Source of the DNA: Gammaproteobacteria bacterium 50_400_T64 | Lineage (GTDB): Bacteria; Pseudomonadota; Gammaproteobacteria; Pseudomonadales; Porticoccaceae | Direction: 5' to 3' | DNA length: 64,000 bases | Assembly: GCA_002162755.1 (NCBI GenBank) | Contig: MAAS01000019.1 | Span: 124,001-188,000 of the forward strand | Shown here: in pieces, positions 11,428 through 42,231 of the stretch | Layout of the letters: each line of letters starts with the position of its first letter | Position numbering within the stretch: position 1 is the stretch's first letter | Notes under the pieces: generated by a model | The model's input: only the letters and a program-made list of their open reading frames with translations | The model's database searches: none | What the model was told of the DNA's origin: nothing | Translations under genes and position numbers: made by a program

Positions 11428-13701
11428 TTAGGCTGACGCAACAACCTCAATCGCTATTTCCCCATCCACAAGCGTAACTTTCACCGTACCGCCACCGCTG
11501 GATAGCTCGCCAAATAACACGGCTTCGGCCAGTGGCTTCTTCAGCTTTTCCTGAATCAGTCGGGCCATGGGGCGAGCGCCCATATCTTCATCGTAGCCAT
11601 TCTCGGCGAGCCACAGACGCGCATCGTCATCAACCTCCAGACCGACAGATTTATCATCGAGCTGAGCTTGCAGTTCAACCAGAAACTTGTCGACCACAGT
11701 GCCAATAATATCGCTGCCCAATGACTTGAACTGAATAATAGCGTCGAGACGATTGCGAAACTCGGGGGCAAACATCTTCTTAATGCTTTCCACACCGTCA
11801 CTGCTATTGTCCTGCACAGTAAAGCCCATCGACGTGCGACTCATTTCGCGAGCACCCGCATTGGTGGTCATAATCAAAATAACATTGCGGAAATCCGTTT
11901 TGCGGCCGTTGTTGTCGGTGAGCGTGCCGTGGTCCATCACCTGCAGCAGCAGGTTGAATACATCTGGATGGGCTTTTTCAATCTCATCGAGTAGCACCAC
12001 ACAGTGAGGGTGCTGAGTTACAGCATCAGTTAATAGCCCACCCTGATCAAAACCGACATAGCCCGGAGGCGCGCCGATCAAGCGTGAAACGGTGTGCCGC
12101 TCCATGTACTCCGACATATCGAAGCGTTGCAATTCAACACCCAATGTCAGCGCCAATTGGCGAGATACTTCTGTTTTACCCACACCCGTTGGCCCAGCAA
12201 ACAGAAAGGAACCTATCGGCTTAGTCGCCTCACGCAGGCCGGCACGGGCAAGCTTGATAGCGGAATCGAGGGATTCAATGGCTTCATCCTGACCGAAAAC
12301 AACCCGTTTCAACTTGTCGCCAAGATTACGTAGCTGCTCTTTATCGGAGGAGGAAACACTCTTCGCCGGGATACGGGCAATTTTGGCGATGGTATTTTCA
12401 ACATCGACCACACCAATGGTTTTCTTGCGTTTCGAGGCAGGTTGTAACTGCTGAAAGGCACCCGCTTCATCAAGTACGTCTATGGCTTTATCGGGCAGGA
12501 AGCGATCGGTAATGTATTTTGCTGACAATTCTGCCGCTGATTTCAGCGCACCCTGGGTGTAACGCAAACCGTGGTGCTCTTCAAAGCGAGACTTCAGACC
12601 TTTAAGAATATCGACGGTCTCCGCAACCGAGGGCTCGGGTACATCAACTTTCTGGAAGCGGCGCGACAGAGCTCTGTCTTTGTCGAAAATACCCCGGTAT
12701 TCCTGATAGGTGGTTGAGCCAATGCAGCGCAGCTGACCAGAAGTGAGTAGAGGCTTCAGTAAATTGGAAGCATCCATCACCCCACCCGATGCGGCACCCG
12801 CACCGATAATAGTGTGAATTTCATCAATAAAAAGAATGGCGTGCTCTTCATTTTTTAACTCGGCGAGCAATCCTTTAAAGCGTTTTTCAAAGTCGCCACG
12901 GTATTTTGTACCGGCCAGCAAAGCGCCCATATCAAGGGAATAAATAACACTATTGGCCAACGGTTCTGCCGCTTTGCCCTCAACAATCAGCTTCGCCAGA
13001 CCTTCGGCAATGGCTGTTTTACCAACACCAGACTCACCCACCAACAGCGCGTTATTCTTACGGCGGCGCAGTAAGATTTGACCCACTCGCTCCAGCTCGG
13101 CACTACGCCCCACCAGTGGATCGATATAACCCTGTTCTGCCTGATGGTTTAAATTACTGCTGAACTGCTCCAGCAAGGTCGCTTCTGGGGCCGCGCTCTC
13201 TCCGGCAGGCGTATCGGCATTGGCCGAGCTATCCACATCACCTTGTTCGCGCTCAGACTCGTTGGCATATTTAGCAATGCCGTGGGAAATAAAATTAACC
13301 AGATCAATGCGCGAAATATTCTGTAAACGCAGAAAGTAAACCGCCTGGCTTTCTTGCTCGCTGAAAATAGCCACCAGTACATTCGCGCCCTGCACTTCAT
13401 TTTTACCCGAAGACTGAACGTGAAAAATAGCGCGCTGAATCACCCGTTGAAAACCCAGGGTTGGCTGGGTTTCTCGCTGTTCGTCATCCTCGGGTAACAG
13501 CGGTGTGGTGGACTCAATAAACTCACCCAAGTCATTGCGCAATACGTCTAAATCAGCGCCGCAGGCATTGAGCACATCGACTGCCGACCCATTGTCGAGT
13601 AACGCCAGCAATAAATGCTCAACGGTAACAAACTCATGGCGCTTGGTATTAGCGCCCTGAAAGGTTGTATTTAAGGTGCTTTCTAAATCTCGACTTAGCA
13701 T
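11428..13701 (-). CDS. clpA: ATP-dependent Clp protease ATP-binding subunit ClpA
   Basis: Unfoldase that feeds substrates to ClpP, including N-degron proteins handed over by ClpS. 757 residues. The N-domain is a double Clp repeat (residues 1-145), followed by a short acidic linker. D1 has Walker A GESGVGKT at 222-229 and Walker B AILFIDEIHT. D2 has Walker A GPTGVGKT near 505 and VVLLDEIEKAHPDV. The C-terminal D2 small domain has GARPMARLIQEKLKKPLAEA. No ClpB-type middle domain is present, which separates it from the disaggregase. It lies 12 nt downstream of clpS on the same strand. Confidence 0.97.
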   Translation of the reverse strand: MLSRDLESTLNTTFQGANTKRHEFVTVEHLLLALLDNGSAVDVLNACGADLDVLRNDLGEFIESTTPLLPEDDEQRETQPTLGFQRVIQRAIFHVQSSGKNEVQGANVLVAIFSEQESQAVYFLRLQNISRIDLVNFISHGIAKYANESEREQGDVDSSANADTPAGESAAPEATLLEQFSSNLNHQAEQGYIDPLVGRSAELERVGQILLRRRKNNALLVGESGVGKTAIAEGLAKLIVEGKAAEPLANSVIYSLDMGALLAGTKYRGDFEKRFKGLLAELKNEEHAILFIDEIHTIIGAGAASGGVMDASNLLKPLLTSGQLRCIGSTTYQEYRGIFDKDRALSRRFQKVDVPEPSVAETVDILKGLKSRFEEHHGLRYTQGALKSAAELSAKYITDRFLPDKAIDVLDEAGAFQQLQPASKRKKTIGVVDVENTIAKIARIPAKSVSSSDKEQLRNLGDKLKRVVFGQDEAIESLDSAIKLARAGLREATKPIGSFLFAGPTGVGKTEVSRQLALTLGVELQRFDMSEYMERHTVSRLIGAPPGYVGFDQGGLLTDAVTQHPHCVVLLDEIEKAHPDVFNLLLQVMDHGTLTDNNGRKTDFRNVILIMTTNAGAREMSRTSMGFTVQDNSSDGVESIKKMFAPEFRNRLDAIIQFKSLGSDIIGTVVDKFLVELQAQLDDKSVGLEVDDDARLWLAENGYDEDMGARPMARLIQEKLKKPLAEAVLFGELSSGGGTVKVTLVDGEIAIEVVASA

Positions 13702-13713
13702 GCGCTACTCCGG

Positions 13714-14136
13714 CTAAAGGTCGTCATCGTCATTATCTTCAGAAGGTTCAATTTCGCAAAGTAGCGGGTGCTCTTTTTCCCGCGCATAGCCATTCACCAT
13801 GCCCGCCTTTGTTTCAGCGACCTCCCGCGTATAAACCCCACAAATACCCCTGCCTTCTGTGTGCACTTTAAGCATCACCTGAACAGCAAATTCTTTGTCG
13901 AGGGAGAAAAAAAGCTGCAGCACTTCAACCACAAACTCCATCGGCGTGTAGTCATCGTTAAGCAAAAAGACCTTATACATAGGGGGTTTTTTTAACCTGG
14001 GCTTAATCGCGTCGACAACGGCGGTGGTGTCACCTCCCGTGTCATTATTAGCGTCGTCATCCCTTTGCAGGTGTGTGCTTTTAATACGTTGCATTACTAT
14101 TTCTGTCGTTGTTTGTTGAGCTTTATACATAGGCAT
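13714..14136 (-). CDS. clpS: ATP-dependent Clp protease adaptor ClpS
   Basis: Recognises N-terminal Leu, Phe, Trp and Tyr and delivers those proteins to ClpA. The core is complete: [20 protein letters not shown] (contains the N-degron pocket Asn-Asp-Asp), [20 protein letters not shown], and [20 protein letters not shown]. At 140 residues it is longer than the usual ~105: there is a polar N-terminal extension of about 50 residues and an acidic tail ending EDNDDDDL. A start at the internal ATG at 14094 (MQRIKSTHL) would give 126 residues and cannot be excluded. It is the first gene of a clpS-clpA unit. Confidence 0.95.
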
Positions 14137-14226
14137 AGCATACGCCGCTTGCGAATAACTTTCATCACTGGGGCGGGGATTTTGTCGACCGCCCTACACA
14201 GAGATACGCTCGATCAGCGACAACAC

Positions 14227-14255
14227 TTGACATATCATGCCTTAGGGATTGAAAT
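14227..14255 (+). promoter_or_regulatory. Candidate sigma-70 promoter for cspD
   Basis: A perfect -35 TTGACA at 14227-14232, a 17-nt spacer, and a -10-like TGAAAT at 14250-14255. This would give a 5' UTR of about 115 nt before the cspD ATG, plausible for a cold-shock family mRNA. Prediction only. Confidence 0.45.
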
Positions 14256-14378
14256 AAAGCAGATAAGTCAGTTGTGTTCTTATACGGCGAAGGAATAGCA
14301 CGGTAGGAATTACACGACCCGACGGGTTCAACGGCTTAAAAAATTATAAAAATAAATGCATTAAGGAGACATCTAGTT

Positions 14379-14654
14379 ATGCCGCAAGGTACTGTAAAGT
14401 GGTTCAACAACGCCAAGGGTTATGGCTTTCTACTGGCCGAAGAAACGGGTGACGATATTTTCGCCCACTATTCTGCAATAGAAATGGAGGGCTACAAAAC
14501 GCTCAAAGCCGGACAGAGTGTTACCTTCGATCTCATCCAGGGCAGCAAAGGTATACATGCTGCCAATATTCGCTCGAACACGACAAGTAGCGATCAACCC
14601 CCAACCGGTAATCATGAAGCGCCGGTAAGTGCGGTCGAAAACTTTAATCATTAA
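14379..14654 (+). CDS. cspD: Cold-shock-domain protein, CspD-like
   Basis: Single cold-shock domain that binds single-stranded nucleic acid. The first 65 residues are the domain: GTVKWFNNAKGYGFLLAEE (RNP1) and DDIFAHYSAIEM (RNP2), then GYKTLKAGQSVTFDLIQGSKG, which resembles CspD more than CspA. A polar tail of about 25 residues follows. AAGGAG lies 12 nt before the ATG. Placement next to and divergent from clpS is the common cspD position in gammaproteobacteria, which supports the CspD name. CspD in E. coli inhibits replication in stationary phase; whether this holds here is inference. Confidence 0.9.
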   Translation: MPQGTVKWFNNAKGYGFLLAEETGDDIFAHYSAIEMEGYKTLKAGQSVTFDLIQGSKGIHAANIRSNTTSSDQPPTGNHEAPVSAVENFNH

Positions 14655-15150
14655 TCCAGCACATTAGCCACGGCTAATGACCTCACTCGCTACCGGATAC
14701 TGAGCCAGGGCAGACCAAACCCGGCTCATTTGTATTCGCACTCAACGACAGGTTTACGTAAGGGCTGCATGACGGTCGACGGCTAAATTTCAGGCCTGTG
14801 AAGGACTCGGTAAAAACCAGTGCCGTTCGACCATCAATACTGACCCAGCATTACATCTTCAACCTTCTCCACTCTACAAAAATCGCGTGTATAAGTCCCT
14901 TCAGACTGTGCTATTGCGTTTAGTCGCATCCTCCCTAAGGGGAGCTCCAAATATTTCGCCCTAAAACGTGGCATGTCTAAGCACCCGGCATTCGTCACAA
15001 CTTCAACGATTACCTCTTTGAGGCACAGACCATTGCGTCAGCGCAACTCTGAAAACATGCGCTGATCATCACTTCTCATTTGTGGCTAATTATCTTTATT
15101 GCTTAAAATAAATCGCGCAAAACACCTTATGATTTAAATATTGGATTTTC
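14655..15150. other. Long intergenic region upstream of the giant repeat gene
   Basis: 496 bp with no open frame that looks coding. A short ATTAGC / GCTAAT inverted repeat at 14663-14678 follows the cspD stop. A second hairpin at 14701-14728 may end cspD. The rest has no tRNA or riboswitch I recognise. The last 100 bp are AT-rich and include TTTAAATATTGG just before the next ATG, probably the promoter/leader of the 15151 gene. Nothing else is visible. Confidence 0.5.
14701..14736 (+). terminator. Possible terminator after cspD
   Basis: TGAGCC-A-GGG (14701-14710) pairs with CCCGGCTCA (14720-14728) with one bulged A and a 9-nt loop, followed by a weak T-rich TTTGTATT. The imperfect T tract makes it a moderate call. 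Confidence 0.5.
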
Positions 15151-39127: not shown

Positions 39128-39997
39128 TTAGTTAACCACCAGCATATCCGTCTTCATACCGCGCAGAATACGCTCTGCGGTATTGCCGATTAATAAACCC
39201 TTCAGGCCTTTATTAGCGGCATTACCAATCACCAGCAAGGCATTTTCCTGTGAAGCCCTCTGGCTCACCACCTCTTCAACCCGCCCGGTCACCACCTCAA
39301 TGGCCTGGGGACTAATGCCCAAATGCTCGACCAGTGCCTGCGTTTTTTTCTCAGCAATGGCCACGGTATCGAGTAAAAAGTCACCACTCATCGGCGCATT
39401 AGCAATACCGGCATAAACCAGAGCGGGATCGGGCACCACACTTAAAACCTTGAGGGGAACACCTTCGGCCTTGGCCAGGGCAGCCGCACTGTCGAGCAAG
39501 CGCGCAGTGAGTTGCTGATGGGCCTCTTGATTATCCAGTGCATCAATCGCCGCTATCACTTGCTGACAAGCTTTTCGGTCTTTGACCATCGCCAGCACCG
39601 GGCAAGGCGTATCGCGGAACAGGTGCCAGTCATCCGGGGTATGAATGAGTACCGATAACAGCGGATCGTGGCTCGCCATCATGACGATTAAACCGGCGCC
39701 ATAATTCTGAGCTTTTTCAACAATAGTGGCATGTACTTTTGTCGTCCATTCCACATGCAGGCGATAGTCTTTATCCGCGCACAGACTCTCAAGGCGCGTT
39801 CTTTCAGCTGCGACGATTTCTCCCTGCAACTGGCTAAAGTCCTGCCAGTTAAGATACTTACTTAACTCACCGAGCTGGTCATGCACTGGCACTAAAACTT
39901 CAAGACCAGTATGTAATCGTGCAGCAAGCTTTTCAGCTTCGCCAAGAACAGCCTCGGCATCATCCCAGTGGGTTATCACAGCCAGTATATTTTCCAT
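39128..39997 (-). CDS. uspE: Universal stress protein, tandem-domain UspE type
   Basis: 289 residues made of two Usp domains. The first starts MENILAVITHWDDAEAVLGE, the second near residue 150 with ACQQVIAAIDALDN and ends ENALLVIGNAANKGLKGLLIGNTAERILRGMKTDMLVV, which has the G-x2-G-x9-G(S/T)-like nucleotide loop. The true start is the ATG at 39997, with GGGAG upstream; the codon before it is TTG. A near-perfect FNR-like site lies 141 nt upstream, in the region shared with the HemN-like gene. UspE-type proteins are often under FNR/Anr control, which fits. Confidence 0.9.
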   Translation of the reverse strand: MENILAVITHWDDAEAVLGEAEKLAARLHTGLEVLVPVHDQLGELSKYLNWQDFSQLQGEIVAAERTRLESLCADKDYRLHVEWTTKVHATIVEKAQNYGAGLIVMMASHDPLLSVLIHTPDDWHLFRDTPCPVLAMVKDRKACQQVIAAIDALDNQEAHQQLTARLLDSAAALAKAEGVPLKVLSVVPDPALVYAGIANAPMSGDFLLDTVAIAEKKTQALVEHLGISPQAIEVVTGRVEEVVSQRASQENALLVIGNAANKGLKGLLIGNTAERILRGMKTDMLVVN

Positions 39998-40137
39998 CAA
40001 TCACTCCCTTTATTATCGCTTGAATATTGAATGCTAAGGGTTAATAAAAGTGCCTAAATCACTGCGTATAACTGATCAGGCTTTAAGTGTGAGCATATCA
40101 AGTAAAGCCATTTAATATAGCAACGACAGAATGCTGT

Positions 40138-40151
40138 TTGATACAAATCAT
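40138..40151. promoter_or_regulatory. FNR/Anr-like binding site
   Basis: TTGATACAAATCAT matches the FNR consensus TTGAT-N4-ATCAA at 9 of 10 defined positions. It lies in the 238-bp divergent spacer, 141 nt from the uspE ATG and 84 nt from the HemN-like ATG. An fnr gene lies 1.4 kb downstream. Binding is predicted, not shown. Confidence 0.7.
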
Positions 40152-40235: not shown

Positions 40236-41420
40236 ATGACAAACTTTAGTAACTCTCACATTCAGCATTCCCTCACGACGGGTTTTAAATCTTCGCTTTT
40301 TCCTCTCTACGAAAGCATTGCCGAAGAGTCTTCAGCCGTAGAGCCAAATGGTGCGGAGTTAAGTAGTATCACGCCAATTGGCATCAATATTTACTGCCCT
40401 CTGCAGCGAGTCGACGACTACGAGCATTTAATTTGTCAGGAGGTGACGCTGCGACGTTCGCTCTACAAGCGACATCAACCGGTGGCATCTGTTTGGTGGT
40501 TAGGCAGCCCCTTACAACAGTTTTCACCCGAGGCCATCACCGAGTTATGTTTTCGTCTCAGCAGCCACTTCATTCATCATCAAGAGGGTTCAACACGGGG
40601 CATGGCGGTGACGCCGATGGAGTTGAACAAAAACAATCTCGCCCTGATTAAAGGTTTAAATTTTAACGCCATTCAATTAAATATTGATGCCAGTATCGCC
40701 AGCTGTGATCGTAGCCTGTCAAACATTGAAACCGCTCTGCAAATGCTCGCCGATTACAAGTCCTTCGATCTGAGCTGCGTGATCAAACTTAGCGACCAGA
40801 CTCACCCCGACTTTATCGACCGGCTATTTAACTTACTGAAAAACTCCCATTGCACCCACATAGAGGTCTTGAGTCAGAAAAACGGCCCGGAGTCTCTACA
40901 AGACAGGTTCACCAGTCAAAACCAGCTGGCCCGTATCAATGCATATTTCGACGATTGTGGGTGGCGCGTTTGCGGCAATAACAGCTTCTTTGCCCCCTCT
41001 CACCCCATTGCCCGTTTGCCTAAGAGAGCAAAACTTGAAGCGACGCCCTGGGGCTATCTGGCCAAGCCAATCCCCCTTTGGTTGAGCTTCGGTGTCGCGG
41101 CACTGAGCCTGCGCGCAGATAACTATCAATACAATACGCCGTCCAGCGAACAGTACGTGTCTATGCTGGGTGATAGGACATCGCCAGTACAAAATCACTT
41201 TTGCTTACCTGCCAAAAACAAAACTAACTTCCAACTTATTCAGCAATTCCTTTGCCAGCACGCTATTACCTCCATCGATCCCAGTCTACATCGGCAACTA
41301 AGCGCGCTAATTCCCAAAGAATGGTTACAGAGCGAAGCCAACAGCCTGGCATTAAACTCAGAGGGTATCGTCAACCTTTCAACTATCTGCGATAAGCTGC
41401 TCGGCGTCCTACCGGCCTAA
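40236..41420 (+). CDS. HemN-derived protein without the radical-SAM cluster motif
   Basis: 394 residues that follow oxygen-independent coproporphyrinogen III oxidase (HemN) in order. GINIYCPLQRVDDYEHLICQ replaces the strand with CxxxCxxC; VWWLGSPLQQFSPEAITEL replaces WGGGTP; GMAVTPMELNKNNLALIKGL matches the IEVDP strand; WGYLAKPIPLWLSFGVAALS matches the GYTTQ...GMGVSAIS segment. A C-terminal winged-helix-like part follows. Only Cys54 and Cys67 lie in the first 100 residues and cannot form the 4Fe-4S site. The HemN start YTSYPTA is also gone. hemN next to fnr/anr is a known order in Pseudomonas-like genomes, so this is probably a former hemN turned non-catalytic. A new function (haem or porphyrin binding?) is speculation. 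Confidence 0.75.
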   Translation: MTNFSNSHIQHSLTTGFKSSLFPLYESIAEESSAVEPNGAELSSITPIGINIYCPLQRVDDYEHLICQEVTLRRSLYKRHQPVASVWWLGSPLQQFSPEAITELCFRLSSHFIHHQEGSTRGMAVTPMELNKNNLALIKGLNFNAIQLNIDASIASCDRSLSNIETALQMLADYKSFDLSCVIKLSDQTHPDFIDRLFNLLKNSHCTHIEVLSQKNGPESLQDRFTSQNQLARINAYFDDCGWRVCGNNSFFAPSHPIARLPKRAKLEATPWGYLAKPIPLWLSFGVAALSLRADNYQYNTPSSEQYVSMLGDRTSPVQNHFCLPAKNKTNFQLIQQFLCQHAITSIDPSLHRQLSALIPKEWLQSEANSLALNSEGIVNLSTICDKLLGVLPA

Positions 41421-41514: not shown

Positions 41515-42231
41515 ATGTCACAGCGATGTCCACACAGTGCCGAAATCAATTGCCGGGATTGCCGCATGAATGCGCTCTGCCTGCCCATTGCCCTGGAACT
41601 CGATGAAGTTGACCGTCTCAATGATATCGTCCAACGCGGCCGCCCCCTGCATAAAGACAACTACGTCTACAATTGTGGCGACGAATTCCGCTCCGTTTAC
41701 GCGGTTCGCAGCGGCTCGATAAAAACCTACAGTGTTAACGACCAGGGCGTAGAACAAGTCACCGGGTTTTATCTACCCGGCGAAATTTTCGGCATGGACG
41801 GCATCGCGCACACCCACCACATCAGCTCAGCTGTGGCCATGGAAACAGCGGCCATTTGCGAAATCCCCTTCGAGCGCATGGAGGACTTGAGCATGACCCT
41901 GCCCTCGCTACAACGCCACTTCTTCAAGTTGATGAGCAAAGAAATTACCAATGACCAGCAGCTGATTGCCCTGCTCAGTAAAAACAGTGCAGAAGAACGT
42001 GTCGCCACTTTGTTACTGAGCATTTCCTCCCGCAATGCCAAACGCAGCCTGTCAAACGTTCGCTTTCGCCTGCCCATGTCCCGCGCTGACATCGGTAATT
42101 ACTTGGGCCTAACTGTCGAAACAGTAAGCCGGGTTTTCAGCCGCTTTCAAAAACAAAATATTCTTGCTGTTGATAAAAAAGAAATTGAAATTCTGGATAT
42201 CCCCGGATTACAGCAGCTAGCCAATACCTGA
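41515..42231 (+). CDS. fnr: Oxygen-sensing transcription regulator Fnr/Anr
   Basis: CRP-family regulator that holds a 4Fe-4S cluster without oxygen and activates anaerobic genes. 238 residues from the ATG at 41515; a TTG at 41509 is in frame but less likely. The N-terminal cysteines are in CPHSAEINCRDCRMNALC (positions 13, 16 and 22 are the usual three), and the fourth is in AICEIPFERM, as Cys122 in E. coli. The helix-turn-helix is RADIGNYLGLTVETVSRVFS, with the TVSR recognition residues of FNR. It follows the HemN-derived gene by 94 nt. The FNR-like site at 40138 may be one of its targets. Confidence 0.96.
   Translation: MSQRCPHSAEINCRDCRMNALCLPIALELDEVDRLNDIVQRGRPLHKDNYVYNCGDEFRSVYAVRSGSIKTYSVNDQGVEQVTGFYLPGEIFGMDGIAHTHHISSAVAMETAAICEIPFERMEDLSMTLPSLQRHFFKLMSKEITNDQQLIALLSKNSAEERVATLLLSISSRNAKRSLSNVRFRLPMSRADIGNYLGLTVETVSRVFSRFQKQNILAVDKKEIEILDIPGLQQLANT

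Follow-up and report, generated by a model that had tools for sequence, protein, structure and literature searches.

The window, i.e., the whole 64,000-nucleotide stretch of DNA that was analysed, harbours on its forward strand an uninterrupted open reading frame of 394 codons (positions 40236 to 41420; ATG at 40236, stop codon at 41418 to 41420), which we term pseudo-hemN; it is followed on the same strand by fnr and preceded by a divergently oriented universal stress protein gene. The features of the locus are as follows.

39128 to 40000, reverse strand: universal stress protein, divergent neighbour (Pfam), seen in the flanks of some relatives only
40138 to 40151, forward strand: FNR-type box TTGATACAAATCAT (pattern scan), beginning 98 bases upstream of the ATG
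40236 to 41420, forward strand: cluster-less HemN-derived protein, a predicted pseudoenzyme of 394 amino acids (open reading frame, TIGR00538, HHalign, AlphaFold model, Foldseek, VIA)
40398 to 40403, forward strand: codons 55-56, site of the missing HemN CxxxCxxC stretch (profile comparison, alignment)
40494 to 40511, forward strand: codons 87-92, WWLGSP, opposite HemN H-x-GGGT; W87 in 28/30 members (alignment)
40863 to 40865, forward strand: codon E210, new conserved residue in 29/30 members; HemN has Ser/Ala (alignment)
41046 to 41054, forward strand: codons P271-W272-G273, opposite HemN Phe-Gln-Gly; P and W each in 29/30 members (alignment)
41515 to 42231, forward strand: fnr, with four cluster cysteines (NF008365, 292 bits), approximately 95 bases downstream of pseudo-hemN

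An earlier note on this DNA had described the gene as aligning with HemN along its length in a frame intact over 394 residues, and had proposed profile searches against HemN, HemW and ChuW; the frame was confirmed, and among these three families HemN alone was matched by the window protein (TIGR00538, E 5.9e-11, 41.8 bits, residues 58 to 344), at a score well under the curated cut-off of 324.95 bits, i.e., outside formal HemN membership. TIGR00539 (HemW; cut-off 205.4) and TIGR04107 (ChuW/HutW) gave no match at E <= 1, which places the protein outside both of these families, and a scan of NCBIfam at this threshold likewise returned only HemN. No Pfam model matched at E <= 1, the radical-SAM and HemN C-terminal domains included, nor did any of 30 members of the pseudo-hemN family match Pfam at E <= 0.01. 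At the latter threshold, TIGR00538 was matched by 29/30 members, TIGR00539 by 3/30 and TIGR04107 by 4/30. The top sequence match of the window protein was PDB 1olt (E. coli HemN), but with an E-value of 0.0017; HHalign of the pseudo-hemN family profile against an intact-HemN profile gave E 6e-39 over 355 columns, and the match to HemN spans approximately residue 36 to 388 of the window protein, leaving only a divergent arm N-terminal to it. The window protein is homologous to HemN, beyond chance, and alignment along its length holds. A plasmid search returned two places with ~19-21% identity to the window protein, both taken for ordinary HemN relatives.

Structure prediction is consistent with this relationship. 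An AlphaFold model built from 30 members, with HemN rows excluded (pLDDT 87.4, pTM 0.87), had 1olt as its top Foldseek match (E 2e-21, TM 0.74/0.68), and its VIA comparison with 1olt gave Z 30.5 and an rmsd of 3.2 A over 367 residues; the subsequent VIA rows were other radical SAM enzymes, with Z of 11.1 and below. As modelled, the HemN fold is retained, including the C-terminal domain and the radical-SAM-type barrel.

The chemistry residues of HemN are, by contrast with its scaffold residues, largely gone. The CxxxCxxC cluster motif, the GGGTP SAM motif and the YTSYPTA start, reported as absent in the earlier note, could not be found in the window protein on alignment with intact HemN, and at the positions of the four N-terminal HemN cysteines all 30/30 aligned members, the window protein included, show gaps; with the entire cysteine stretch gone in all 30, an active HemN with other ligands was ruled out. 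In an alignment (A3) of 30 members with 35 intact HemN sequences, eight of the latter from the window's taxonomic family (L140 was left out, as the chosen ATG cut off its N-terminus), a HemN position was considered near-invariant if identical in at least 33/35 intact HemN and kept if present in at least 20/30 members. By this measure 19/113 near-invariant positions are kept: Cys 0/5, basic 0/14, acidic 2/9, polar 1/23, Gly/Pro 8/23, aromatic 5/20 and aliphatic 3/19. Retention thus amounts to 3/51 chemistry residues vs 16/62 scaffold residues (Fisher p 0.005, from one alignment in which columns are not independent, with ancestry and alignment error ignored), such that the loss appears concentrated in the chemistry residues of HemN. 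The best-retained basic position is an arginine that is still Arg in 11/30 members, with others kept in 4 to 7 of 30.

New near-invariant residues have arisen at G122 (29 of 30), W87 (28), E210 (29), P271 (29), W272 (29) and W363 (27); P271-W272 lie opposite the HemN Phe-Gln, which we take to touch the second SAM. Among charged and polar residues near-invariant across the group, E69, E103, T102, N300 and C340 are common to HemN (C340 and Y307 of the window protein both being found there), and E210 is the sole new one. A near-invariant His, Lys or Arg was sought across all 30 members and not found; H256 is His in 23/30. Subgroups have invariant residues of their own: the window's clade (12 rows) has N51, R107, R121, D151 and R159 among others, and g4 (12 rows) has such positions with Lys, Arg and His.

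The cluster-less gene has a narrow taxonomic distribution. An initial search of 58 relatives yielded 27 genomes with a match: 18 of these, the window's own included, are cluster-less (L001-L018) and all lie within the window's family, and for the remaining nine, of the order (L019-L027), the best match has the cysteine motif. A profile (A1) made from the 18 cluster-less sequences and run on 112 genomes of the family detected carriers in 31/112, across 7 of 14 genera, at 243-560 bits, vs no more than 108 bits for intact HemN in family genomes; Cellvibrionales bacterium NORP45 and two Gammaproteobacteria bacteria are among the carriers. The loci of 30 of the 31 were fetched (L094-L123), with CxxxCxxC in 0/30 and an intact frame in 30/30. 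Internal stops had been flagged at six places; in L112, L119, L121, L122 and L123 the flagged stop is taken as terminal because the frames are open (384-411 amino acids) and the profile scores nearly the same, and the sixth place is the unfetched carrier, G115. Outside the family, A1 matches reached no more than 165 bits in an order-wide search (390 genomes), in which 74 genomes matched at E 1e-25 and 24/24 fetched loci have CxxxCxxC; a class-wide search (369 genomes, E 1e-40) gave the window's own genome and one 140-bit match, whose locus has the cysteine motif, with few candidates scored per genome in both searches, so that rare outliers may be missed. In an unrooted tree the cluster-less members form one group with support of 100/100, at the end of a branch to the HemN side of 3.0 changes per column, a length at which fnr-linked and other HemN were not discriminated as nearest; G115 and an extreme form from G008 (L080) are in neither A2 nor the tree. 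L080 itself is shortened (341 amino acids, 57 bits), lies upstream of fnr and carries an FNR-type box; an intact hemN is present in G008 as well.

Linkage to fnr is a constant of these loci, fnr lying directly downstream on the same strand in 30/30 fetched pseudo-hemN loci as well as at L080, so that relatives do share the same loss beside fnr, as the earlier note had asked. The earlier note also stated that hemN often adjoins fnr or anr: outside the family, intact hemN lies directly upstream of fnr in 24/24 fetched loci, a selected, best-scoring sample (among L023-L027, one alone is fnr-linked). Within the family, fnr was sought in the flanks of intact hemN from 12 genomes and not found. The simplest history would be one in which the cluster-less gene descends from the fnr-adjacent hemN, with intact hemN located elsewhere in part of the family. 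All four Fnr cluster cysteines are present in 32/33 loci looked at. At the exception, L118 (G112), an open fnr frame without the N-terminal cysteine region could reflect a frameshift, a sequencing error or a cluster-less Fnr.

A putative promoter element accompanies the gene. The pattern TTGAYnnnnRTCA, relaxed after the strict consensus TTGATnnnnATCAA had been scanned for, occurs near the start of 31/31 pseudo-hemN loci (30 plus L080) vs 0.23 expected from mononucleotide shuffles; the strict consensus is weaker per locus (p 0 to 0.86) and significant in some loci only. The box does not belong to the stress-protein neighbour alone, because it is also found in all 13 loci without that neighbour in the flank. 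Counted without shuffles, it is present at 11/12 intact hemN loci of the family and at 15/28 fnr-linked intact hemN loci. On these sequence grounds, pseudo-hemN is probably under Fnr control. The pattern was sought, and not found, in G001 and G030, which have lost the gene and kept fnr; in G001 the promoter stretch can still be aligned (73%, 123 bases), and its box is altered. In this member of the window's genus (L069, ~1160-1370), there is also weak similarity (E 0.026) between a 33-base stretch, a possible relic, and the 3' end of pseudo-hemN. The pseudo-hemN box is also asymmetric: its final four bases are TCAT, not TCAA, in 30/31 loci, which sets it apart from 10 of the 11 intact hemN loci of the family that have a box.

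Substitution patterns (dN/dS by Nei-Gojobori counts) point to purifying selection on pseudo-hemN. In all 16 pairs with dS under 0.6, dN/dS is 0.06-0.17: 0.059-0.158 in the 15 pairs of the g4 close set (dS 0.09-0.49) and 0.173 for the window and its nearest relative (dS 0.56), compared with 0.009-0.145 and 0.055, respectively, for fnr over these pairs. The g4 pairs show roughly equal constraint on both genes; in wider pairs the pseudo-hemN protein diverges several times faster than Fnr, and genus g12 is looser, with dN/dS of 0.25-0.41 where dS is finite. In many wider pairs synonymous sites are saturated with the frames still open. The close pairs rule out a decaying pseudogene, the neutral decay that the earlier note had named as a refutation, and its central proposal, i.e., that a former hemN beside fnr lost its radical-SAM residues and was retained as an intact, selected gene, is supported. 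With an open frame, purifying selection and absent catalytic residues, pseudo-hemN bears the marks of a pseudoenzyme, and this predicted status is well supported. The gene is nonetheless dispensable, because two lineages, G001 and G030, have lost it, with fnr and the stress protein gene kept and pseudo-hemN missing between them.

An Fnr match (E 1e-40) is present in 31/31 carriers vs 34/81 non-carriers (Fisher p 9e-10, with ancestry and genome completeness ignored), and none of the 47 family genomes without an Fnr match carries pseudo-hemN. Intact hemN scored over the cut-off in 27/112 family genomes, 19 of them among the 31 carriers; in the other 12 carriers it was sought and not found, two of these genomes (G058 and G059) being only 76-84% complete. 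The window's genome is one of the 12, no intact hemN having been found elsewhere in it, as the earlier note had suggested checking, nor in any of the seven genomes of its genus, its own (95% complete) included. The role of pseudo-hemN is therefore independent of HemN, because 12/31 carriers show no intact hemN, and an obligatory HemN partner was ruled out on the same count. The window's genome also has HemF, and a HemW (G000:C30, 378 bits) on a contig other than that of fnr.

Pseudo-hemN probably now serves a new function without catalysis, and the reading that we favour, with a confidence slightly above even, is that of a HemN-fold pseudoenzyme under Fnr control that acts by binding, most probably of a protein, as an adaptor or modulator. 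In the ancestor of the family, a hemN copy beside fnr would have become pseudo-hemN; at low oxygen, Fnr would turn on pseudo-hemN and, given co-transcription, fnr as well. Neither SAM nor coproporphyrinogen would be served by the former active site any more, the conserved new Trp and Pro residues presumably occupying positions of former active-site residues, and the protein would instead bind, most probably to another protein, modulating or adapting the low-oxygen response, a role that we infer from what is missing. Binding is favoured because basic residues have been lost family-wide, few new polar ones have been gained and the locus is tied to Fnr and low oxygen. Fnr itself is one candidate partner. 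The idea of a dead HemN turned signalling protein, controlled by Fnr, encoded with fnr and feeding back on Fnr or on the low-oxygen supply of heme or iron-sulfur clusters, is a tentative one to which we lend limited credence. An outright Fnr partner, which would bind Fnr or its cluster-loading machinery and tune the oxygen switch in a one-operon feedback loop, is in our estimation unlikely: the place of the gene directly upstream of fnr on the same strand (30/30 fetched loci), the box (31/31), the Fnr match in all 31 carriers with the gene in 0/47 Fnr-less genomes, and an invariable fnr linkage when fetched that intact hemN (12 family genomes) lacks would all accord with it; however, G001 and G030 keep fnr without pseudo-hemN, and the neighbourhood may be plain inheritance, as intact hemN outside the family adjoins fnr too.

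Alternatively, the protein could be a porphyrin or heme binder, whether sensor or chaperone, comparable to the heme-binding HemN-like proteins HemW and Campylobacter CgdH2, an option that agrees with the fold and C-terminal domain retained in the model, with H256 (23/30) and with R107, R121 and R159, invariant in the window's 12-row clade; such subgroup-invariant basic and polar residues would also be expected from a ligand site. Basic residues are the natural partners for coproporphyrinogen carboxylates, and their family-wide loss argues against the holding of a tetracarboxylate porphyrinogen: 0/14 near-invariant HemN basic residues are kept in at least 20/30 members (best 11/30), no His, Lys or Arg is near-invariant family-wide, and C340 and Y307 are common to HemN. 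The porphyrin sensor that the earlier note had raised is thereby weakened, with the subgroup arginines still speaking for it. There is precedent for HemN-like proteins as heme chaperones, and E. coli HemW is said to bind heme independently of its cluster, although the cluster is required for heme transfer, according to PMC10320005; the window's genome, moreover, already has HemW, and we consider a heme binder doubtful. An emptied barrel with a new, SAM-independent chemistry might account for the new conserved W87, E210, P271, W272 and W363 and for purifying selection, but is improbable, few near-invariant charged or polar residues being present and E210, the sole new one, leaving too few for an obvious catalytic set; this paucity argues against new chemistry. 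Slow decay of a non-functional remnant, finally, is hardly credible: quick protein divergence in wider pairs and the losses in G001 and G030 would fit, yet dN/dS is 0.06-0.17 in close pairs, 0/30 fetched frames are broken, and frames remain open despite synonymous saturation in many wider pairs.

Among known systems, the pseudo-hemN protein resembles HemN (1olt/TIGR00538) in predicted fold over 367 residues, C-terminal domain, place upstream of fnr and FNR-type box (found at 15/28 fnr-linked intact hemN loci), and differs from it in having no cluster cysteines, GGGTP or YTSYPTA arm and, family-wide, 0/14 near-invariant basic residues. ChuW/HutW (TIGR04107) have the cluster motif and are distant sequence relatives, with 4/30 members matching at E <= 0.01, but the profile leaves the window protein unmatched at E <= 1. 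HemN uses a cluster and two SAM, as described in PMC10548856. HemW and CgdH2 share with the favoured reading a HemN-like fold used otherwise than for coproporphyrinogen oxidation, but both have Fe-S clusters, according to PMC10320005, and the window protein has no TIGR00539 match. In some Pseudomonas, hemN flanks anr and an Anr box precedes hemN, as stated in PMC6588701; there, unlike at the window's locus, hemN is intact and downstream of anr, in some species with one gene between. A literature search for a cluster-less, still selected HemN descendant, covering open-licence papers and thus weak, found none. Pseudo-hemN has an evident relative, arose once according to the tree, is spread over 7 genera and has carriers in which intact hemN was found and others in which it was not; together with natural losses for comparison, and a box absent where the gene was lost, this makes the role of a dead HemN directly testable. 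The gene has no Pfam match, and lax annotation might take it for hemN in genome-based predictions of anaerobic heme synthesis. If the tentative signalling reading is true, an oxygen regulator would have put to its own use the shell of an enzyme that is among its classic targets.

Two genomes have additional Fnr-like genes. In G109, a second Fnr-like gene lies divergent to an intact HemN gene (contig C6, ~12791-14928), with the pseudo-hemN/fnr pair on C50; this second pair could be real or contamination. G005 has a second fnr (contig C72, 160817-161530) that is 86% identical to that of the window, with its lone pseudo-hemN match on another contig.
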